Shown here: positions 51,589-64,000 of the stretch, piece after piece
Numbering within the stretch: the first letter of the stretch is position 1
How the letters are laid out: the number at the start of each line of letters is the position of its first letter
Source: Ruminococcus sp.
GTDB lineage: Bacteria; Bacillota; Clostridia; Oscillospirales; Ruminococcaceae
DNA length: 64,000 nt
Direction: 5' to 3'
Assembly (NCBI RefSeq): GCF_024691275.1
Contig: NZ_JAILNU010000023.1
Location: 1-64,000 of the forward strand
Translations under genes and position numbers: made by a program
The notes under the pieces: model-generated
Database searches by the model: none
What the model saw: only the letters and a program-made list of their open reading frames with translations
Told to the model about the DNA's origin: nothing

Positions 51589-51685
51589 ATTTCAATCCAC
51601 GCTTTCCATGAAGGAAGCGAACTCGGCAACACGTTGAAAGCCTGTATATTCGCTGTTTCGATCCATGCCCCTGTGGCAGGGCGAC
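51589..51685. CRISPR. Degenerate two-repeat CRISPR relic
   Basis: The first unit (51589-51621) matches the main-array repeat from ATTTCAATCCACGCT onwards, with five changes; CGCTTTC/GGAAGCG still forms the stem. A 33-base spacer-like gap follows (51622-51654). The second unit (51655-51685) reads GTTTCGATCCATGCCCCTGT... and GGGCGAC, closer to the common type I-C repeat form than to the local one. It lies about 1.8 kb from the main array with no cas gene beside it. Confidence 0.75.
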
Positions 51686-51843
51686 TTGGGCTAAGTCGAG
51701 TATATGGCTTAAAACAGCCTTTTGCAAGTATATTATATCATGTATTCTTTGTTTGTCAAGAGCAAAATATTCACAGGTATCTCTTATGGAGGATTTTTAT
51801 TCATTCCTTTGTGTAAATTCAGGCGCTTATCTGCAAAGGAGCA

Positions 51844-53482: not shown

Positions 53483-56400
53483 ATTTAAAACCACGCTCCC
53501 AATGAAGGGAGCGACTGATATATTCAAGGCTGGTGCTTCCTGCTACTACTATTTCAATCCACGCTCCCAATGAAGGGAGCGACTTCCTTGAACGTTAGCC
53601 CAGCCGTCAGCTTCACGAATTTCAATCCACGCTCCCAATGAAGGGAGCGACCTCAGGAGTTACGTGCTGGGAACCATACCAATGCATTTCAATCCACGCT
53701 CCCAATGAAGGGAGCGACAAGTTATATTCCTTCTCGTCCCCATATACAAGCATTTCAATCCACGCTCCCAATGAAGGGAGCGACTCTGTTCCGCTTTCCG
53801 TACTCCATTCGTAAGCAGATTTCAATCCACGCTCCCAATGAAGGGAGCGACAATAAGGCTGTGGCTGTCTCTTGTGAACGCTAAGAATTTCAATCCACGC
53901 TCCCAATGAAGGGAGCGACCGTAGGGCGATAATACAAGCGTTTCTGACGTGGTCATTTCAATCCACGCTCCCAATGAAGGGAGCGACCGAGCAGGGATTG
54001 GAAAAAGCCAATACCGAAAATATTTCAATCCACGCTCCCAATGAAGGGAGCGACAATAAGGCTGTGGCTGTCTCTTGTGAACGCTAAGAATTTCAATCCA
54101 CGCTCCCAATGAAGGGAGCGACGCTGATCGAGTGTTGCTTTTTGGATACCACTCACCGATTTCAATCCACGCTCCCAATGAAGGGAGCGACACAACTCAG
54201 ACTACTATCCGTTTGCAGACTATTGATTTCAATCCACGCTCCCAATGAAGGGAGCGACTTCTGGACGTGACGACGCAAGTGTAGAAATATTTTTATTTCA
54301 ATCCACGCTCCCAATGAAGGGAGCGACCACATTTTTGTATCCATATGTTATAATTTGTAGATTTCAATCCACGCTCCCAATGAAGGGAGCGACCCTTTTA
54401 ATATTAAATTTTGTGGTTGTCTTTTGAATTTCAATCCACGCTCCCAATGAAGGGAGCGACGATTACCATAGTCAACAGGAACAAAAGAGGAAAATTTCAA
54501 TCCACGCTCCCAATGAAGGGAGCGACCTGATAATGATTTTAATTTTGTTTGGTGGTCTGATATTTCAATCCACGCTCCCAATGAAGGGAGCGACCAAGCG
54601 ATATCATATGCCTTCTGATTTATCCGAAGATTTCAATCCACGCTCCCAATGAAGGGAGCGACAGCTTGCGAGCCTTGCAAAGCTCTGTAAAGAATTTATT
54701 TCAATCCACGCTCCCAATGAAGGGAGCGACGTTTTCCTTCCTCGACGCTCACATTTGCAGAATGCAATTTCAATCCACGCTCCCAATGAAGGGAGCGACA
54801 GGATTTAAAAACAGAAACGGTTATGATTGATGGTATTTCAATCCACGCTCCCAATGAAGGGAGCGACGTTTTCCTTCCTCGACGCTCACATTTGCAGAAT
54901 GCAATTTCAATCCACGCTCCCAATGAAGGGAGCGACAATACGAACGTCGTTCTATTGCACGCGCTAAAAGATTTCAATCCACGCTCCCAATGAAGGGAGC
55001 GACAGGCTAAAGATATGTTGACTTTGGTCGATATCAAGATTTCAATCCACGCTCCCAATGAAGGGAGCGACTGGACTGCGGCAAAAAATTAAATTAGGTG
55101 CTTATATTTCAATCCACGCTCCCAATGAAGGGAGCGACATGAAATTGAAAAGCCCATAGAAACAAAAACGGTTATTTCAATCCACGCTCCCAATGAAGGG
55201 AGCGACGAGAGACAGTCGCCGCTTCGTACATAGTAGGTCTGATTTCAATCCACGCTCCCAATGAAGGGAGCGACTATATTTTGATTTCTCCGTTTTCAAG
55301 CTTATGAAGATTTCAATCCACGCTCCCAATGAAGGGAGCGACGTAGCCTGAGAAGCTCCTGAAGCTTAAACTCTCCTCGATTTCAATCCACGCTCCCAAT
55401 GAAGGGAGCGACCAGGTCTGCTATTCTTATTTTTGCCAGTATATCATTTCAATCCACGCTCCCAATGAAGGGAGCGACCAAAATGGAGCAGTATCAAGCA
55501 AAGATGAATTAATTTCAATCCACGCTCCCAATGAAGGGAGCGACTTCTTGCTTATGCCATTTTCCAATATCAATAAAATTTCAATCCACGCTCCCAATGA
55601 AGGGAGCGACCAGCCTAACGGCGTATGCCGATTACCGTACACGATTTCAATCCACGCTCCCAATGAAGGGAGCGACAACATTACAATATTGGATTGACAC
55701 ATGCAAGTGTATTTCAATCCACGCTCCCAATGAAGGGAGCGACCGATGTTGCACGTACACTAACACCTGAGATGATAATTTCAATCCACGCTCCCAATGA
55801 AGGGAGCGACTCAAGTATCCTGTTGATGTAATACCGTCGATAGGTATTTCAATCCACGCTCCCAATGAAGGGAGCGACAGTTACAGCCCCTCATTGCTGA
55901 GAGGCTGTTGTATTTCAATCCACGCTCCCAATGAAGGGAGCGACTATTGTATTGTTAATACTCATCTGCATAGCTGAGAATTTCAATCCACGCTCCCAAT
56001 GAAGGGAGCGACTGACAGCATTTAATTACCCTGTAGGGCGTTTTTATATTTCAATCCACGCTCCCAATGAAGGGAGCGACACCCCTCTCTCATATAGAGA
56101 GGGGTATTATTTAAGATTTCAATCCACGCTCCCAATGAAGGGAGCGACATTTCGTTCTGCTTCTGTAAGATTAAACGTATACATTTCAATCCACGCTCCC
56201 AATGAAGGGAGCGACACGGCTATCAGATCAGCAGGAAAGTCCGAACGCAGATTTCAATCCACGCTCCCAATGAAGGGAGCGACCGAGCGTTCTTCCCTAT
56301 TCCAAAGAGTGCCAGCAAATTTCAATCCACGCTCCCAATGAAGGGAGCGACGGCGCAAGAAGCAGCAAACAAAAGCAATTGAACCTATTTCAATCCACGC

Positions 56401-57223
56401 TCCCAATGAAGGGAGCGACAAAACGAGGGCATTAACGCAGCCATAGTCGGCGATATTTCAATCCACGCTCCCAATGAAGGGAGCGACTAAACGGCTCGAC
56501 TGTGTATTCATCATCAACGAATTTCAATCCACGCTCCCAATGAAGGGAGCGACGATATTGGTTCGCTTCTCCGCCGTAATGATATTGATTTCAATCCACG
56601 CTCCCAATGAAGGGAGCGACAATAATGTACTTTTTTCCTTCAATCTCGATTTGAATTTCAATCCACGCTCCCAATGAAGGGAGCGACCTATCGATAAAAG
56701 TTTGAGCTTTTGCGGCATGGACATTTCAATCCACGCTCCCAATGAAGGGAGCGACTTTAATCAGACGTTACCGCGATGATATAGTAACAATTTCAATCCA
56801 CGCTCCCAATGAAGGGAGCGACTTAAATGAATTGCAGTCAAATATTCAGTTCAATGGTATTTCAATCCACGCTCCCAATGAAGGGAGCGACAATGTCAAA
56901 ATTAACGCTTTTAACCGAATAACAATTTCAATCCACGCTCCCAATGAAGGGAGCGACAGTATACGCTAAAACAGTTGGTTTTGCTTGTCTATTTCAATCC
57001 ACGCTCCCAATGAAGGGAGCGACTCTGTATGCCTTCTCATATGCGCCCGGAATAGTATTTCAATCCACGCTCCCAATGAAGGGAGCGACTATTGAACGAT
57101 TTTCGCATAAATGGCTGTTTTGGATTTCAATCCACGCTCCCAATGAAGGGAGCGACACCTTCTTGATGATCTTGTTTGCGATAGTTGTAGATTTCAATCC
57201 ACGCTCCCAATGAAGGGAGCGAC
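53483..57223 (-). CRISPR. Type I-C CRISPR array, 56 repeats and 55 spacers
   Basis: The 33-nt repeat on the plus strand begins ATTTCAATCCACGC and ends AAGGGAGCGAC; on the minus (transcribed) strand it begins GTCGCTCCC and ends GTGGATTGAAAT, the type I-C stem and 5' handle. By hand count there are 56 repeats, with spacers of 33-37 nt. All repeats look identical except the first on the map (53483-53515), which has two changes and marks the old, leader-distal end. The leader side is at 57223 next to cas2. Two spacers occur twice. Confidence 0.98.
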
Positions 57224-57384: not shown

Positions 57385-57675
57385 TCAGAAAATAAGTGGT
57401 TCGTCCACTTTTATAGTCTGTTTAGCACCGATATGTTCTATCTTTGCTTTTTTACTGTCGCCAAGATAATAAAAACGCAGACTATCCCGTTCGTTATCTA
57501 TTTCTTCTGTCAGTTTTTGTTTGAGCAAACGGCACTGTGCAGGATCGAGCTCGCATTCAAACACTGAATTCTGAACTCTTATTCCGTAGTTGACGCATTG
57601 TTTTGCAACGTGCCTGAGTCGTTTTTTTCCTGCGCCGTCTGATGTATTCACATCATATGTTATCAATACGAGCAT
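57385..57675 (-). CDS. cas2: CRISPR-associated endonuclease Cas2 (type I-C)
   Basis: A 96-residue Cas2 beginning MLVLITYDVNTSDGAGKKRLR, with metal-site Asp8 and the ferredoxin fold. It forms the spacer-integration complex with Cas1. A longer frame to 57786 overlaps cas1 and lacks support. The ATG at 57675 is preceded by GGAAGTG, five bases after the cas1 stop. Confidence 0.96.
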   Translation of the reverse strand: MLVLITYDVNTSDGAGKKRLRHVAKQCVNYGIRVQNSVFECELDPAQCRLLKQKLTEEIDNERDSLRFYYLGDSKKAKIEHIGAKQTIKVDEPLIF

Positions 57676-57679
57676 ACAT

Positions 57680-58711
57680 TCACTTCCACATAAAAGGCGG
57701 GTACGAATCAAGGTCGCCCCTGATATATCTTGCGAGTAACAATGCCTGAGAATATGGCAGCATTCCCCATTCCAGCTTTTCGTCAAGGAACGGGTGCTTC
57801 AGTTCATCGCTCTTGCGTTTTTGCCATGAGGATATGAAGGTCTTTCTTCCGCTTTCCGTAAGAAGCACAGCACCGTCCTCCCGTTTTTCAAAATCGGAAG
57901 GGGAGATGATACGTTTATTTATCATTGTTATTACGAACCTGTCACACAGCGGAGCACGGAATTCTTCAACAAGGTCAAGAGCCAGCGATCTTCTTCCGGG
58001 GCGGTCTGTATGCATAAATCCCACATAAGGATCAAGTCCCACGGCGGCAAGAGAAGAGGTACACATACTTGTAGCGAGTGAATATGCGAAAGAGAGCATT
58101 GCATTTACGAAGTCTCTTGGGGGACGCTTATTTCTGACGGTAAAGCAAAAATCGTCTTTCTGCTGTAGTATCATGTCATTGAATACCGAAAAATAGACCT
58201 GTGCGCCTTCGCCCTCGATACCTCTCAGGGTATCCATATCAGCAGCTTCCAGAGCGTTTTTTGATGAGCTTTTCAGAAGTTCTGAGCAGTGTGCAAATTT
58301 TTCGGTATCAATTCTCAGCGAGTGATCTCTGAGTGTGCGCTCGACGGTCCAGCGGCTGTTGAAAAGCTTGGCGCATATGATATTTCTTGCTATTTCGAGT
58401 GATTTTTCGGTATCGTCTGCAAAACGATATTGCTGTCGTCTTAAAAGCACATTTCCGCTTACTTCTCCCTCAACACGGGCAAGGAAGCGTCCGCTGCCGC
58501 TCATAAATATCAGTTCGATGCCGTCATTGGCGCATTTCCCCATGAGAGCAGGACTTGCTCCCGTATAGCCAAAAGTCATTATCCTTTCCAGGTTATGCAG
58601 GGGAACTCTTCCTATCTCTTTTCCATCGCTCAGTATGACCACGGTTTCTCCGTCAAGGGAAAGATACCTGTCAGGAGAAGTGATATATAAAGTATTCAGC
58701 AGCTTTTTCAT
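57680..58711 (-). CDS. cas1: CRISPR-associated integrase Cas1 (type I-C)
   Basis: A 343-residue Cas1, the spacer-acquisition integrase. An N-terminal beta domain is followed by the helical catalytic domain, with the likely metal ligands in IEGEGAQVYF (Glu), GFMHTDRPGRRSLALDLVEEFR (His, Asp/Glu). It starts one base after the cas4 stop. Intact length and motifs suggest the array can still adapt. Confidence 0.97.
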   Translation of the reverse strand: MKKLLNTLYITSPDRYLSLDGETVVILSDGKEIGRVPLHNLERIMTFGYTGASPALMGKCANDGIELIFMSGSGRFLARVEGEVSGNVLLRRQQYRFADDTEKSLEIARNIICAKLFNSRWTVERTLRDHSLRIDTEKFAHCSELLKSSSKNALEAADMDTLRGIEGEGAQVYFSVFNDMILQQKDDFCFTVRNKRPPRDFVNAMLSFAYSLATSMCTSSLAAVGLDPYVGFMHTDRPGRRSLALDLVEEFRAPLCDRFVITMINKRIISPSDFEKREDGAVLLTESGRKTFISSWQKRKSDELKHPFLDEKLEWGMLPYSQALLLARYIRGDLDSYPPFMWK

Positions 58712-58712
58712 A

Positions 58713-59369
58713 TCATTTATCCTCCAGCATTGACGCTATATGAGCTTTTGCACTTTTATCCGAACACAGTGCGGGCAGGCAGATATTTTTCAGCGAACAG
58801 GCATTGCAGGCTTTGCTGCGTTTTACCTTTGGGGTATACTGCCTGCGGTACATTTCGTGCATTTCTTTCAGTGCTTTTTCTGTTTTTTCACGAAGCTCGT
58901 CGGTGAGATCGACTTTTGTACGCCTTCTGGTCTCTCCGTAATAGAGAAAGCCTGTTTTAATTTCGCAGCAGAGCATTTCCTCCAGACACATGGCCTGAGC
59001 TGCAAGCTGCATAATATCGCTGTCGTTTTCTTTTGGCTGTCCCCGTTTGTATTCCACAGGAGTTACGGAGTATCTGCCTTCAAGCCCGAAAATCTCTATA
59101 CCCGAGCTGTTCCGTGTGAACTCGACAACATCGCATTCGCCGCTTATGCCGAGCCTTGCGGAGGCTACTGCCATTGCGCGGGATATGATAACATTTCCGC
59201 GTTTTTCGTGAAAATCCGCATCATGAACATTGCGGTGCATTACTCTTCCGTCAGCTGTGCGGAAATTTTCTTCCCACTGCTGTTCTATATGTATCAAAGC
59301 CCATTGCCGACGGCAGAAAACGAAGTGCTGTATCCCTGACAGCAGCAGATACTCGTCCTCGCTGTACAT
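58713..59369 (-). CDS. cas4: CRISPR-associated exonuclease Cas4
   Basis: A 218-residue RecB-like nuclease with a C-terminal iron-sulfur cluster (CNACSLKNICLPALC plus Cys in HFVFCRRQWAL). Nuclease-core residues include SGECDVVEF and VEYKRG. It trims and selects PAM-bearing prespacers for Cas1-Cas2. I place the start at ATG 59369 (GAAGG upstream, one base after the cas7 stop) rather than the TTG at 59381. Confidence 0.94.
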   Translation of the reverse strand: MYSEDEYLLLSGIQHFVFCRRQWALIHIEQQWEENFRTADGRVMHRNVHDADFHEKRGNVIISRAMAVASARLGISGECDVVEFTRNSSGIEIFGLEGRYSVTPVEYKRGQPKENDSDIMQLAAQAMCLEEMLCCEIKTGFLYYGETRRRTKVDLTDELREKTEKALKEMHEMYRRQYTPKVKRSKACNACSLKNICLPALCSDKSAKAHIASMLEDK

Positions 59370-59370
59370 A

Positions 59371-60228
59371 TCAGCCTTCAAATACTTCAGGTGTCAGTCC
59401 TTCGATAGAATCGAGCCTTATGTCGTAATCCTCGAAGCAGCGCGGTCTGTCAACTTTTTCCTTCAGGCTTACATTGAGCAGGCGGTGTACCTTAGCCGAT
59501 GAGAATATAGGAGTTTTGCTGTCGTGCTTGTACCAGTAAACACGTCTTACCTCCATGCTGCCCTCGGGTCTTGCAGATGAACAGTCATTCTCGAACAGTG
59601 TTTCGAGAGCGAGCTTTATCTTTTCGGCATCTTCTTCTGTGAAGCCTGTCTTTTCAGCAAGCTGGCAGTTGATGCTGCCGTGGAAAACGTAGAGAGCGAA
59701 ATCAATTTTGTGCTTTGTTCCCATAGTATCCGAAGCCTTGCCGTCCTTGCCGCTTTCGCCGTTAACGCTTTTTGTTATCTGCATACTCACGATATCCACA
59801 GGGGAGACACTTTCAGCCTGTTGGATAGTAACAGGACCTCTTACTCCTACAGAAACTGAATCGCCCTTGAAAGCGAATACCTGACCGAAGCTGCGGACAT
59901 CTATCCATTCCTCACAGGCAGCTTTAGCGTATTCATCTCTGTCGGTATTCTTGGCTTTGCTGAGCTTGGCAAGTGTTTCACAGGCTTTTGCACGGTCGTG
60001 AAGACTTTTCTGACCGTCGTCGCATCTTTCGTCGGACTGAACGAAGATTTTCTCACCCATATCCTGCAAGCGGTTGCGGATCTTACGCTTTATGCATACG
60101 TCGCTTATCTCACCGAGGCCGTCGTAATTCTCACGAGGACGGTTGCCGTTGAGAGGGTCGCCGTTGGGGTTAGCATTTTTAGCTGTGATTATCACTGAAA
60201 AATCTATTTTATTCTGAAGTACGCTCAT
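59371..60228 (-). CDS. cas7: Cascade backbone protein Cas7 (Csd2, type I-C)
   Basis: A 285-residue Cas7/Csd2. IDFSVIITAKNANPNGDPLNGNRPR at the N terminus is the family signature, with further RRM-like motifs (FGQVFAFKGDSVSVGVRGPVTIQ). Several copies wrap the crRNA in Cascade. The start follows GAGGAGG, three bases after cas8c. Confidence 0.97.
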   Translation of the reverse strand: MSVLQNKIDFSVIITAKNANPNGDPLNGNRPRENYDGLGEISDVCIKRKIRNRLQDMGEKIFVQSDERCDDGQKSLHDRAKACETLAKLSKAKNTDRDEYAKAACEEWIDVRSFGQVFAFKGDSVSVGVRGPVTIQQAESVSPVDIVSMQITKSVNGESGKDGKASDTMGTKHKIDFALYVFHGSINCQLAEKTGFTEEDAEKIKLALETLFENDCSSARPEGSMEVRRVYWYKHDSKTPIFSSAKVHRLLNVSLKEKVDRPRCFEDYDIRLDSIEGLTPEVFEG

Positions 60229-60231
60229 TTT

Positions 60232-62076
60232 TTATTCCTCCTCGTTATTCCTGTCAGATGAACTGCTGTTCCAGAGCAGTGCATTGTAATGGTGGAAGCC
60301 TATAAGATACATTGGTGAGAGCTTGCTGTTATCGGCAAAATCCTCGGGTGACATCTTTGACATTATCTCATTGATGTGCTTGGTGTATTTAGTCATTACC
60401 CACTGTTCTTTTTCGAGGTATGGTTCAAGTCTTTCCTCGATGATTTTCCATGTCTGGTAAGGTCTTGACGAAAAGGTGTTCCAGAATCTTCTTGCGTTTG
60501 TTACACGTCTTTCGTCCCTGTCGTATGTATCGCTTTCAGCCTTGTCAGCAATTGCGAGCAGACAGCCGAAAAGATAGCTTCTGTCGGTGCAGGTGGGATC
60601 ATATGCCATTTTTATCTCTCCTTTATAATAAAGTTTGTTATCATGGTCGGTATGCTCTTTTTTTATAAGGGCACAAGTATTTTCGATGACTTTGCGGTGG
60701 CTGGATTCGTGTTCATATAAAAGGGGTGATGATGCTTTTTCGCAGAGTATCATTACCACATCGTGTGGGAGCATCTTTCCCTCTGTAACACACGGCAGCA
60801 GTCTTAGTATAACATCTCCCATGAGCTTCTTGTCACACGCAAGGAAACCGCTTTGTTCCGAGCCGTACAGACAGTTGGCTATCTGGGGCAGGCTGCATGA
60901 ATCGTCAATTGACTTTTCGAGCTTGCTGTTGTATCTTCTCCATACAGTGCCGTTATGCCATTTTTCAAGGTTATTATAGAAATCTGATTCTGCGAGCTCG
61001 GTATAGAGGGCTATGGAAAGTCTTCCTGTGGTAGCGGCATCGAGACCCATTATCATTACCTTGCTGTCGGGAGATATTTTCATCTTATTACCTAACAGAG
61101 ATTTGTTGAGCAATTCTGAGAATTTCGGCACAGTATCGTAGTCCTCGGCATCGTCGTCGAAAAGTTCAAAAGCACTTTTTGTGACGCTTGGAACGAATCC
61201 GAGGGCACTGCTCCATGTTACTAGAGTCAGTGTGTCGTAGGAACGGCTCTGTCTGCTGATGAGCCATTTCAGAGAATTGTGCATTTTCTGGGAGTAGTCG
61301 TAGCTTACAGCTATAGCTTCCTCTTTATTTGAAAAACGTCCGCGGAAGGTATAATTTGCACTGTCATTGGCAGAGATCAGCTTTGCCTTGTCGCCGCTGT
61401 TGCGTATTTTTGCGGGGTGCTTATAGGTCACAGCGCCAATTTTGCCGTCGGCGTAGCTCAGTCCGCAGCTGTCAAGAGTTGACTCATAGTACTTTCGGAA
61501 AAGATCATGGAGTTCGGTATCGAGCCATGTATAGCACAGACCGTTTTTGCCGCTGACGATGAAACGAACGAAGGAATCTTCTTGAGAAATGTTATTGTAC
61601 TTTTTATCCGAGAACTTTCCGTTTGTTTCGTTGAGTTCGATAACTCCCATTTTTACGAGGTCGCTTATCAGCTGTCTCTTTTCGAGGTAAGCATATATAG
61701 CAGTTATGGCAAAGTGAGAGTATTCGCTTTTGCACCATTTGCCGAGCTGCTCCATATAAGCACTGAAATAATCGGAATTATCTGCGCGTTTGCCCTCGGC
61801 ATACTGACTGTAGTCGCCTGCGATATATACAAGTTTGTCCGCAAGGGGCATGGGATTTATTCCACTGCCTCGGGCAGCTGAATCCTCGGTGACAGGGATT
61901 ATTGTCACAGCATTTTCCTTTTCGACAGCCGAAGCACTGATAGCTTCACCTTCATCGGAAATAGTGATCTCTATCTGAGCATTTGCCGTGGAGTGGGAGA
62001 TAGGCAGCATAGTTTTTCCGTCATCTGTGTTCAAAGCGCGTTCGTAGACCATGTAAAGCTCATTCGTCCAGCTCAT
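60232..62076 (-). CDS. cas8c: Cascade large subunit Cas8c (Csd1)
   Basis: A 614-residue type I-C large subunit. The N terminus MSWTNELYMVYERAL and the segment MPLADKLVYIAGDYSQYAEG with ISRQSRSYDTLTLVTWSSAL are typical of Csd1. It recognises the PAM and recruits Cas3; the C-terminal part may also supply the small subunit through an internal start, as known for I-C. The start at 62076 follows GGGAGGTG and overlaps the end of cas5 by 17 bases; a longer frame to 62205 is not supported. Confidence 0.95.
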   Translation of the reverse strand: MSWTNELYMVYERALNTDDGKTMLPISHSTANAQIEITISDEGEAISASAVEKENAVTIIPVTEDSAARGSGINPMPLADKLVYIAGDYSQYAEGKRADNSDYFSAYMEQLGKWCKSEYSHFAITAIYAYLEKRQLISDLVKMGVIELNETNGKFSDKKYNNISQEDSFVRFIVSGKNGLCYTWLDTELHDLFRKYYESTLDSCGLSYADGKIGAVTYKHPAKIRNSGDKAKLISANDSANYTFRGRFSNKEEAIAVSYDYSQKMHNSLKWLISRQSRSYDTLTLVTWSSALGFVPSVTKSAFELFDDDAEDYDTVPKFSELLNKSLLGNKMKISPDSKVMIMGLDAATTGRLSIALYTELAESDFYNNLEKWHNGTVWRRYNSKLEKSIDDSCSLPQIANCLYGSEQSGFLACDKKLMGDVILRLLPCVTEGKMLPHDVVMILCEKASSPLLYEHESSHRKVIENTCALIKKEHTDHDNKLYYKGEIKMAYDPTCTDRSYLFGCLLAIADKAESDTYDRDERRVTNARRFWNTFSSRPYQTWKIIEERLEPYLEKEQWVMTKYTKHINEIMSKMSPEDFADNSKLSPMYLIGFHHYNALLWNSSSSDRNNEEE

Positions 62077-62809
62077 CAGATTCACCTCCCTCGAACTCGC
62101 AAAGACCGCTGAAGTTGTCAAGGTCTTTGCCGAACTTCTTGATCTCCATTTTCTTGATGTGACGTTTGTGCTCTGACGGTATATCCGAAGGACGCACGAA
62201 CTCAATGATGCCGTTTTTCATTTCGGGCTTGAAGAAGCAAACGGTCATGAAGTCCTTATCTTCGTCCTTTTCGGCTTCGTCGGGATAGATCATAGCGTAG
62301 TACATGAATGCAAGGTCCATATCAACTCCGTCGTATGCGCCCTTGCCCTCACCGAAGATGCAAGGCTCAACGTAACCCTGACATTCCCGTGTGCCGAGAA
62401 AAATATCACGTCTGCCGCCGCGTTCTATCATACGTCTGGCGATATTATGATGCTTGTGTTCGTTCCTGTCCTGTTCGAGCTCAGGGCGGTTAAGGTTCCA
62501 TTCAAAATGAGCTCTTACCTGATAGCGAACATTTTCAAGGTAGTTATAGTATGCCAGATCGTTTCCGCCGTCGTATTTTATGGGACGAATACCTTTTCGC
62601 ACTGTTTTGATGGGGTTCATGATCCTTACAGCGTCTATATACCACGTAATTGTCGGTTTCCAGTAAACGCTCTGGAGACAGCCCTTCAGTGCTTCATATG
62701 TGGGGATACTGTAGCTGAATTTTTCACCGCCCACTCGAGTAAGCACATCTGAGAACAAAGCGTTTTTGCCGTATACGCAGAACTCAACTGTATTTCTGTG
62801 TTTTTGCAT
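62060..62809 (-). CDS. cas5c: Cas5c (Cas5d), crRNA-processing Cascade subunit
   Basis: A 249-residue type I-C Cas5. In this subtype it replaces Cas6 and cuts the repeat hairpin to leave the 11-nt 5' handle. FCVYGKNALFSDVLTRVGGEKFSYSIPTYEALKGCLQSVYWKPT is the conserved N-terminal region. The start at 62809 is preceded by AAAGGAGG. It is the first gene of cas5-cas8c-cas7-cas4-cas1-cas2 and has its own consensus promoter, so this operon can be regulated apart from cas3. Confidence 0.95.
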   Translation of the reverse strand: MQKHRNTVEFCVYGKNALFSDVLTRVGGEKFSYSIPTYEALKGCLQSVYWKPTITWYIDAVRIMNPIKTVRKGIRPIKYDGGNDLAYYNYLENVRYQVRAHFEWNLNRPELEQDRNEHKHHNIARRMIERGGRRDIFLGTRECQGYVEPCIFGEGKGAYDGVDMDLAFMYYAMIYPDEAEKDEDKDFMTVCFFKPEMKNGIIEFVRPSDIPSEHKRHIKKMEIKKFGKDLDNFSGLCEFEGGESDELDE

Positions 62810-62830
62810 CTGAGCACCTCCTTTTTTATC

Positions 62831-62849
62831 TTCTATACAAATTATATTA
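62831..62849 (+). promoter_or_regulatory. Predicted Cascade autorepression site: TTC PAM plus 16-nt seed over the cas5 promoter
   Basis: TTC (62831-62833) is followed by TATACAAATTATATTA (62834-62849). These 16 bases are identical to the start of the spacer-like part of the guide RNA at 62980-62995. TTC is the established type I-C PAM, and its placement directly 5' of the matched strand is correct. The match covers the -10 box of the cas5 operon promoter. Identity stops after base 16, expected to permit binding but not cleavage. Confidence 0.8.
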
Positions 62850-62869
62850 ATTTCAAACACGCTTGTCAA
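62841..62869 (-). promoter_or_regulatory. Consensus promoter of the cas5-cas2 operon
   Basis: On the minus strand TTGACA (62864-62869), 17 bp, TATAAT (62841-62846): a perfect sigma-A promoter about 30 bases before the cas5 start. Its -10 box lies inside the sequence matched by the crRNA-like guide. Confidence 0.88.
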
Positions 62870-62916
62870 GTCTTTTTCTAAAAAAATTTATAGAAAATCA
62901 AATTTAAGAGAATCTG

Positions 62917-62945
62917 TTGCTATTTATTGAGTTTTATGTTATAAT
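62917..62945 (+). promoter_or_regulatory. Promoter of the crRNA-like guide RNA
   Basis: TTGCTA (62917-62922), 17 bp, TATAAT (62940-62945) on the plus strand, divergent from the cas5 promoter. The start point falls at about 62951-62953, exactly where the repeat-like sequence begins. Confidence 0.7.
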
Positions 62946-62950
62946 AAACC

Positions 62951-63045
62951 GTCGCATATTAATATGCGTGGATTGAAAATATACAAATTATATTATCGTT
63001 TTTACGAGTCGGCACACCGCATGGGAGCATATCCTGTGCGGTGTG
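62951..63045 (+). ncRNA. CRISPR-repeat-like guide RNA (CreR-like) predicted to repress the cas operon
   Basis: GTCGC...GCGTGGATTGAAAA (62951-62979) keeps the ends and the 3' handle of the array repeat, but its stem is a different perfect palindrome, CGCATATTAATATGCG, a compensated change that Cas5 could still cut. A 33-nt spacer-like stretch follows (62980-63012). A hairpin CACACCGCA (63013-63021) / TGCGGTGTG (63037-63045) can close the 3' end. The spacer's first 16 nt match the cas5 promoter beside a TTC PAM. Cascade loaded with this RNA should block cas5-cas2 transcription. The sequence is seen directly; function is inferred from known CreR/CreA-type RNAs of other type I systems. Confidence 0.75.
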
Positions 63046-63063
63046 TTGATCTATCTGCAATGA

Positions 63064-64000
63064 TCAGTATATGAGTACTTCTTGTTCAGCGCCTTCCAAG
63101 GTCACTCCGAACTCATTATTATAAAAGCTGCGGTCTTTCAGGTAAAAAATTCCGCTTTGGTTCATGCTCAATGCACCTTTTTCGATGAGCTTTTTTTCTG
63201 CTGAGGCATAAACGCTGACAGTATATTTCTGAGCTTTTCTCAGCAGCTCAACAGCCTCAGAAGGGGAGATATCGCTTTCCAGCTCAGCGATTATAGCTTT
63301 AGCTTTTTTGTTATACGGAACGATAATACTCTTTGTTCTGCTGTCGATGACTTCAAAGAGAGTGCCTGCTGTCATGAAAGCCTGTGAAAGGAACTTCTCG
63401 GTGCTCTTTTTTACTTTCCAGCGGTCTTTATCAGTGGAAAGGAGCTCAAGCAAAGTTGTGTCGTTATCGCCGTCTTTGACCTTATAGGAGAGCTCATCTT
63501 TATAACGCTGAAACAGCATATTGAAGTATTTTGTCTGGATATCCACTGATAAAAGGTCTGCGTCGGTATTGCTGATAATATTTTGCGAGATGATCTGCGC
63601 AGACTTTATCTCTTCAAGGTGTCTTAGCTCCTCAGCCTTGAAGTTGATGATATATACAGGACATATCCTGCCGAATTCGTCGCTGCGGTTGCATCTTCCT
63701 GCTGCCTGAGCAGCATTGTCAAGTCCTGCGATTGCACGTATCACGCAGCTGAATGATATATCTACACCTGCTTCGATAAGCTGCGTTGTAACACATACAA
63801 CAGGCATTTTTCTCCTGAGGAATCTTTTCAGCGTACCTATGCGTTTTTTTCTGTGTACAGGACACATATTGGTACTGAGGTGTATGAGGCAGGCTTCATT
63901 TCCGAGGCGCTCTTTAAGTTCGGCATACATCTTCTTTGCCTGAGCCTTTGTATTAACTATCAGCAGAAGATCGCCGTTTTCTCTGAATTTTTCGCAGCAG
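63064..64000 (-). CDS. cas3: CRISPR-associated helicase-nuclease Cas3, C-terminal part (continues beyond window)
   Basis: The reading frame is open from 64000 to the stop at 63064 (312 codons seen); the start lies outside the window. It holds the second RecA-like helicase domain (LLLIVNTKAQAKKMYAEL motif IV; VTTQLIEAGVDISF motif V; DNAAQAAGRCNRSDEFG motif VI) and the Cas3 C-terminal domain. Cas3 unwinds and degrades target DNA after Cascade binding. It precedes cas5 on the same strand, but a 254-bp gap with its own promoter and a plus-strand guide RNA separates them. Confidence 0.95.
   Translation of the reverse strand, partial: CCEKFRENGDLLLIVNTKAQAKKMYAELKERLGNEACLIHLSTNMCPVHRKKRIGTLKRFLRRKMPVVCVTTQLIEAGVDISFSCVIRAIAGLDNAAQAAGRCNRSDEFGRICPVYIINFKAEELRHLEEIKSAQIISQNIISNTDADLLSVDIQTKYFNMLFQRYKDELSYKVKDGDNDTTLLELLSTDKDRWKVKKSTEKFLSQAFMTAGTLFEVIDSRTKSIIVPYNKKAKAIIAELESDISPSEAVELLRKAQKYTVSVYASAEKKLIEKGALSMNQSGIFYLKDRSFYNNEFGVTLEGAEQEVLIY

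Follow-up and report, generated by a model that had tools for sequence, protein, structure and literature searches.

The end of a 64,000-nucleotide stretch of Ruminococcus sp. DNA (assembly GCF_024691275.1, contig NZ_JAILNU010000023.1, positions 1 to 64,000; the window hereafter) lies within a minus-strand type I-C locus of clustered regularly interspaced short palindromic repeats (CRISPR) and CRISPR-associated (Cas) genes, in which a gap of about 250 bp separates cas3 from cas5c-cas8c-cas7-cas4-cas1c-cas2 and the array. This gap very probably holds the gene of a guide RNA resembling the Cas-regulating RNAs (CreR), which would block the cas5 promoter by way of Cascade. A lone repeat on the plus strand is followed by a guide that matches a site over the -10 box of that promoter, beside a TTC protospacer adjacent motif (PAM), and differing guides that match sites of their own recur in related loci. 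A first-pass annotation of the window had put forward this idea. The match, the repeat, the PAM and the promoter anatomy that it described are real, and its reading of them as a guide aimed at the system's own cas promoter is supported by the sequence comparisons given below.

The guide unit and its target

The unit begins on the plus strand with a promoter-like site, TTGCTA-17-TATAAT with an extended -10 element (62917..62945), which scored 10/12 in the promoter scan and lies where the first-pass annotation had placed it. A promoter-like site is not by itself unusual in this region, where the scan found 3 against an expected 1.5 (standard deviation 1.1). Then follows a CRISPR-repeat-like unit of 29 nt (62951..62979, plus strand) that shows a 6-bp stem (CGCATA/TATGCG), a TTAA loop and the handle GTGGATTGAAAA. 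Its ends and its handle, GTGGATTGAAA, are those of the array repeat, whereas its stem sequence is different and the array repeat measures 33 nt. These coordinates, ends and handle had been reported correctly, apart from the last base of the repeat, which was given as T and is A. The genome has 57 exact copies of GCGTGGATTGAAA: 55 in the array, one in a unit at 51589 and one in the lone repeat. As in CreR genes, and judging by its sequence, the unit looks like a CRISPR RNA (crRNA) gene that stands outside the array, adjoins the cas genes and has its own promoter. It is not an ordinary array, which would have at least two regular repeats, since a single repeat is present and a hairpin occupies the place expected for the second one.

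The guide part of the predicted RNA occupies 62980..63007 on the plus strand, and its first 16 nt (62980-62995) are identical at 16/16 positions to the target, or protospacer, at 62834..62849 on the same strand. This identity had been noted before; the guide length of 33 nt given with it would be too long, because the guide comes to about 28 nt when a strong hairpin from guide nucleotide 29 onward is taken as its end. The hairpin that closes the unit (63008..63050, plus strand, -31.9 kcal/mol) is a probable terminator, and folding of the RNA 62951-63055 gave a z value of -6.5. In the minus-strand direction the scan scored the palindrome of the repeat as terminator-like, so this palindrome could double as the terminator of cas3. 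Comparison of 62700-63200 with Rfam returned three matches, all far under the gathering scores. No exact copy of the window guide with its handle was found in viral contigs, for which that guide and the spacer of the 51589 unit were tried.

The TTC PAM (62831..62833, plus strand) is directly 5' of the target, and the target covers the -10 box of the cas5 promoter TTGACA-17-TATAAT (62869-62841, minus strand), which matches the consensus at 12/12 positions; the PAM and the perfect consensus had both been recognized. A limited match of this kind, 16 nt to a cas promoter beside a TTC PAM, is a mark of CreR. When 62813-62950 was shuffled 5000 times with dinucleotides preserved, the start of the guide was matched over 12 nt at most, versus 16 nt in the real sequence, and a match of 8 nt with TTC was reached in 4 shuffles. 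In the genome (assembly of 3.4 Mb, 93% complete), the pattern that combines TTC with guide positions 1-5 and 7-11 has a single occurrence, which is the target; the reversed reading of the pattern also occurs once.

Guide/target pairs in related type I-C loci

Related loci were gathered with a Cas5c search, from which 80 loci were taken as the best of at least 558, and from genomes in which Cas5d was present (61/391 at the class, 122/396 at the family and 110/398 at the phylum level). The 119 Cas5d places used were mostly those with high scores and available upstream sequence, the last batch having lower scores, and therefore make a non-random sample. The 200 loci, which include the window's contig, became 181 after near-identical ones were merged; locus L008, which the clustering had merged with L005 (two systems of one strain), was restored by hand in addition to the 181 loci. 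The search for handle-like sites outside arrays (GTGGATTGAAA with up to 2 mismatches) gave 505, and each was tested by comparing the next 14 nt with the 1500 nt of surroundings, with any PAM and with mismatches at one of six phases only. The criterion for selecting a pair was identity at positions 1-5, 7-11 and 13-14.

The phase that leaves positions 6 and 12 free gave 38 matches, and the other five gave 14, 11, 16, 8 and 10, counts that each include fully matching pairs. Although the PAM was left free, it was TTC in 29 of the 38 matches, TTT in 7, AAG in 1 and CTC in 1. Twelve letter-permuted handles gave in total 1 TTC and 2 TTT matches versus 36 for the real handle, and 0-4 matches each when all PAMs were counted, with one exception that is weighed below. 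The matches with CTC (L220) and AAG (L033) were left out; the latter belongs to a repeat that is 34 nt or more in length, and its locus also has a shorter TTC pair. The final set thus consists of 37 TTC/TTT guide/target pairs, the window and L008 included, and every guide in it is different. A looser 11-nt test found pairs in 40 loci, and since it also gave 22 matches over 15 permuted controls (11 and 6 in two of them), the counts given here rest on the stricter criterion. The pairs with a TTT PAM are those of L045, L052, L058, L078, L079, L172 and L194. Both TTC and TTT are PAMs of the characterized I-C system of Neisseria lactamica, according to the available text of PMC10865793, and TTT could possibly be a weaker PAM that limits self-damage.

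Covariation of guide and promoter among related loci had been proposed as a test in the first-pass annotation, and it was found: 37 differing guides each match their own locus. At positions 15, 16 and 17, which played no part in the selection, guide and target are identical in 34/37, 33/37 and 24/37 pairs, versus fractions of 0.37, 0.38 and 0.40 when the pairs are swapped between loci, that is, about 14 of 37 expected. Identity falls to 6/37 at position 18 and is at background beyond. Positions 6 and 12 are identical in 10/37 and 16/37 pairs, which is the swapped-pair level (0.33 and 0.44). Own pairs average 14.46 identical positions of 15, 12 of the 15 being selected ones, whereas swapped pairs average 5.93. 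Loci L019 and L202 differ from each other at positions 5 and 15 in guide and target alike. The distinct guides and the match at the unselected positions 15-17 point to co-evolution of guide and promoter, as in CreR. The matches also keep a strict register, with 41 at shift 0 and 1, 0, 2, 1, 0 and 0 at shifts of -3, -2, -1, +1, +2 and +3 nt. On these counts, the register of the match is set by the repeat handle and positions 6 and 12 are free, as in Cascade pairing, where each sixth position is flipped out according to the available part of PMC5904413.

Layout and distribution of the pairs

Eighteen targets are located upstream of cas5 (7-298 nt) and nineteen upstream of cas3 (18-916 nt, the largest distance being that of L189 alone and the next-farthest 404 nt). 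The guide gene runs antiparallel to the cas genes in 32/37 pairs; nine of the 37 targets are on the cas-sense strand, and in the other 28/37 pairs, among them that of the window, the guide sequence is the complement of the cas strand. When the comparison was limited to the 29 pairs that have a promoter scoring 10/12 or better no more than 150 nt away, a 37-nt footprint counted from the PAM fell over the best promoter in 21/29, versus 6.3 expected. A hairpin anchored at the handle was found in 30/37 pairs, where shuffles would give 8.7, and its arms come in 26 distinct combinations, which indicates a stem that is conserved even as its bases change. The finder of anchored hairpins misses the longer ones of L025 and L142, which were seen with a search for the longest hairpin anywhere that misplaced some stems; L123, L126, L172, L179 and L218, in which no anchored hairpin was found, are weaker members. 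A second hairpin starts 18-32 nt into the guide in 33/37 pairs, often followed by runs of T, as counted without a shuffled control. The layout of promoter, hairpin, handle, guide and hairpin thus recurs among the related loci.

Nine further loci have a lone TGGATTGAAA and no pair. Eight of them were re-examined: in L120, L140 and L191 a site with TTC shows one mismatch more, and no convincing target site was found in the remaining five. Ruminococcus sp. YE71 carries two I-C systems: L008 has a guide, and L005, where cas3 and cas5 are immediately adjacent, showed no pair. On a Cas5 tree of 172 rows made with a quick method, mild clustering is seen for the cas5-upstream arrangement (15 changes versus a shuffled 17.4, with 2/500 shuffles as low) and not for the cas3-upstream one (18 versus 18.3). 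This tree gives no sign of inheritance of the guide as one clade, presence and absence being at the shuffled level, and we make no claim of a single origin.

Six plasmid I-C loci among 16 records were also examined in a scan that had no shuffled control. In L245, on plasmid pLPZ1 of Lacticaseibacillus paracasei ZY-1, the 13 nt after a degenerate handle match a site that has TTC and lies between cas2 and cas5. The features lie around 4635 and 4799, with a terminator-like hairpin and a run of T, and the match is upstream of cas5. Plasmid pLPZ1 is typed as mobilizable and its host is a cultured strain from kefir. The other five plasmid loci, Zymomonas and Nitratidesulfovibrio among them, showed no convincing pair in that scan.

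Proposed mode of action

From the anatomy of the unit and from what is described for other subtypes, we infer how the RNA would be made and used. A short RNA would start from the lone repeat at 62951 and be cut by Cas5c at the base of the repeat hairpin, leaving the usual handle; a figure legend in PMC10651486 names Cas5 as the processing enzyme of type I-C. Cascade (Cas5-Cas8c-Cas7) would take this RNA to the target, which adjoins TTC and overlies the -10 box of cas5, where pairing of 16-17 nt, about three 6-nt Cas7 segments, would hold it without a full R-loop, so that Cas3 would not be engaged and the promoter would be blocked. Expression of the Cascade and adaptation genes (cas5-8-7-4-1-2) would in this way be capped and the separately promoted cas3 spared. 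Repression would lift when crRNAs fill Cascade or when Cascade is disabled; relief by crRNAs or anti-CRISPRs is reported for other subtypes and may apply here. For N. lactamica, the available text of PMC10865793 describes how I-C Cascade represses when a spacer lies over a -10 element. Passages of PMC10989794 on a I-B system state that shortened spacers of 24 bp repress while interference and priming are lost, and that an 11-bp match is sufficient for the I-B CreA.

Several observations weigh against this proposal. Six PAM-distal mismatches greatly weakened promoter blocking by I-E Cascade in work cited in the available part of PMC5904413. The 17-nt match lies over a -10 box in just 13/37 pairs, 8/37 lack a promoter scoring 10/12 or better up to 150 nt away, and the target of L189, at 916 nt from cas3, is not clearly in a cas promoter. 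One of the permuted handles gave 34 matches, 33 of them at PAMs other than TTC and TTT. The hairpin of the window has no clear U-tract and is not called by the terminator scan. Finally, a pair was found in only 34 of the 169 loci that have at least 2.8 kb upstream of cas5, and its presence is scattered on the Cas5 tree, with 33 changes versus a shuffled mean of 33.7.

Alternative explanations

We consider it improbable that the guide is real and serves mainly for something other than repression, be it as a decoy that soaks up Cascade or as a primer of spacer acquisition. A solitary-repeat inhibitor of type I-C, RacrIC1, is known from a prophage according to the available part of PMC10651486, so a decoy of this kind has a precedent. 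Yet a decoy needs no promoter match, and here covariation keeps the match upstream of the cas genes; the unit is also part of the cas locus itself and comes with a target that it matches, whereas a Racr is a mobile-element decoy that can do without one. A priming role fits poorly with the I-B 24-bp spacer, which still repressed after priming and interference were gone (passages of PMC10989794).

The chance that the unit is a functionless relic, a decayed array repeat whose spacer came by accident from the adjacent promoter, appears very small. The lone repeat does differ from the array repeat in length and stem, and no pair was detected in most of the surveyed loci. Decay, however, would not preserve register and PAM, and the 37 different guides match sites of their own loci in the register of the handle and beyond the selected positions, within a layout that recurs.

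Equally hard to sustain is an antisense RNA that pairs with the leader of the cas mRNA instead of guiding Cascade to DNA, even though the guide is complementary to the cas strand in most pairs. Judging by the -10 box, transcription in the window would start downstream of most of the target, the RNAs of the 9/37 pairs with cas-sense targets would be unable to pair with the mRNA, and a PAM has no role in antisense pairing. As for the 16-nt direct repeat being an operator, bound at its two copies by a protein repressor independently of Cascade, a duplicated AT-rich 16-mer by promoters does resemble paired operators, but this can practically be set aside because the matches begin one base past GTGGATTGAAA, TTC and TTT are favored with the PAM left free, positions 6 and 12 are ignored, the guides differ in all 37 loci and 9/37 targets are on the opposite strand relative to cas.

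The cas genes and a second standalone unit

The type I-C assignment made in the first-pass annotation was borne out by NCBIfam models, which fit all seven cas genes of the set cas3-cas5c-cas8c-cas7-cas4-cas1c-cas2, every one on the minus strand. The cas3 gene occupies 63064..64000 and continues past the window to its start at contig position 65394 (TIGR01587, 1.5e-37; TIGR01596, 2.6e-23). A separate promoter-like TTGAAA-17-TATAAT was read by eye ahead of it. The first gene of the targeted operon, cas5c (62060..62809; TIGR01876, 2.8e-66), encodes the pre-crRNA processing subunit, and is followed by cas8c (60232..62076; TIGR01863, 9.6e-92), cas7 or csd2 (59371..60228; TIGR02589, 2.9e-99), cas4 (58713..59381; TIGR00372, 1.8e-38), cas1c (57680..58711; TIGR03640, 5.1e-142) and cas2 (57385..57675; TIGR01573, 1.4e-19). 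The CRISPR array (53551..57223, minus strand) has 55 identical repeats of 33 nt. Besides the guide unit, the gap between cas3 and cas5 contains no open reading frame of at least 60 amino acids; very short toxin RNAs are still conceivable there. Beside cas3 and outside the window (L113, 6083-10342), several signal-peptidase-like and sortase-like reading frames were seen by eye.

A second standalone unit is present at 51589-51759 on the minus strand, about 1.9 kb past the far end of the array. It shows a promoter-like TTGACA-16-TATAAT (51759-51732, by eye), a degenerate repeat GTCGCCCTGCCACAGGGGCATGGATCGAAAC (51655-51685), a 33-nt spacer and a second degenerate repeat (51589-51621). No convincing target for it (51589-51685) was found within the window. 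Elsewhere in the genome its spacer has one 11-nt seed match with TTC (C1:6531-6544), where a hand estimate expects about 0.2.

Comparison with known systems

Liu et al. 2023 reportedly described CreR as Cas-regulating RNAs of subtypes I-B, I-E and V-A. Shmakov et al. 2023 are said to have predicted crRNA-like elements or mini-arrays in type I and V-A systems, standalone repeats whose spacers partly match cas promoters, and in this the window unit would resemble them. No I-C case resembling CreR was found among the literature matches listed, a search that did not extend to the contents of these two papers, the second of which may list I-C. CreR-type control is reported for I-B, I-E and V-A in the available part of PMC13131331, and CreR for type I and V-A in that of PMC12737573. 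The window unit resembles CreR in its crRNA-like RNA, in its partial match to a cas promoter and in the autorepression predicted from it. It differs in that its subtype is I-C, in that processing is expected from Cas5c and not from Cas6, in having one repeat followed by a hairpin, and in that the targeted promoter excludes cas3.

Likeness to the CreA RNA of CreTA is found in the ectopic degenerate repeat, the partial spacer match, the TTC PAM and the Cascade-borne repression (available text of PMC9458426 and PMC10989794). CreA represses a toxin RNA, whereas the targets described here are upstream of cas5 or cas3; that of the window is in the promoter directly upstream of cas5, so the unit does not fit a CreTA toxin gene. 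Autorepression of Cas9 by tracr-L, as presented in the available part of PMC8616872, is likewise a case of a natural guide that turns the effector on its own expression, although tracr-L belongs to class 2 and works with another RNA and another effector.

The pairs would extend guide-based self-restraint of CRISPR systems to subtype I-C, from dozens of natural pairs versus one locus. They can be taken as a natural mutagenesis set that informs on the I-C PAM (TTC and TTT), on the sixth positions, which stay unpaired, and on how far pairing extends, a length seemingly treated by evolution as safe for binding beside an active Cas3. Such information should be useful for the design of I-C CRISPR interference.

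A parallel within I-C is Myxococcus xanthus, whose DevT, DevR and DevS proteins show negative autoregulation by a mechanism that the available part of PMC8616872 describes as unknown; Cas3 is not needed for it, and a spacer that would match is not apparent. As in the mode of action proposed here, the I-C proteins Cas5, Cas7 and Cas8c are proposed to repress their own operon without Cas3; unlike in the loci analyzed here, with their predicted guides, no guide is known for DevTRS according to that same text. A degenerate guide of the window type would fit this autoregulation. It is possible, if rather doubtful, that single-repeat guides with pairing limited to 17 nt provide a two-setting control of I-C systems across the Bacillota and that the same device, with a degenerate guide that has escaped recognition, is the missing mechanism behind DevTRS in the development of Myxococcus. 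Pairing over 17 nt, or three Cas7 segments, would then be enough for a promoter and too short for calling Cas3, and a guide between cas3 and cas5 would lower Cascade and adaptation only, whereas one upstream of cas3 would lower everything. For the autoregulated I-C (dev) operon of Myxococcus, the pairs define concretely what to search for, and the DevTRS question becomes testable in this way.
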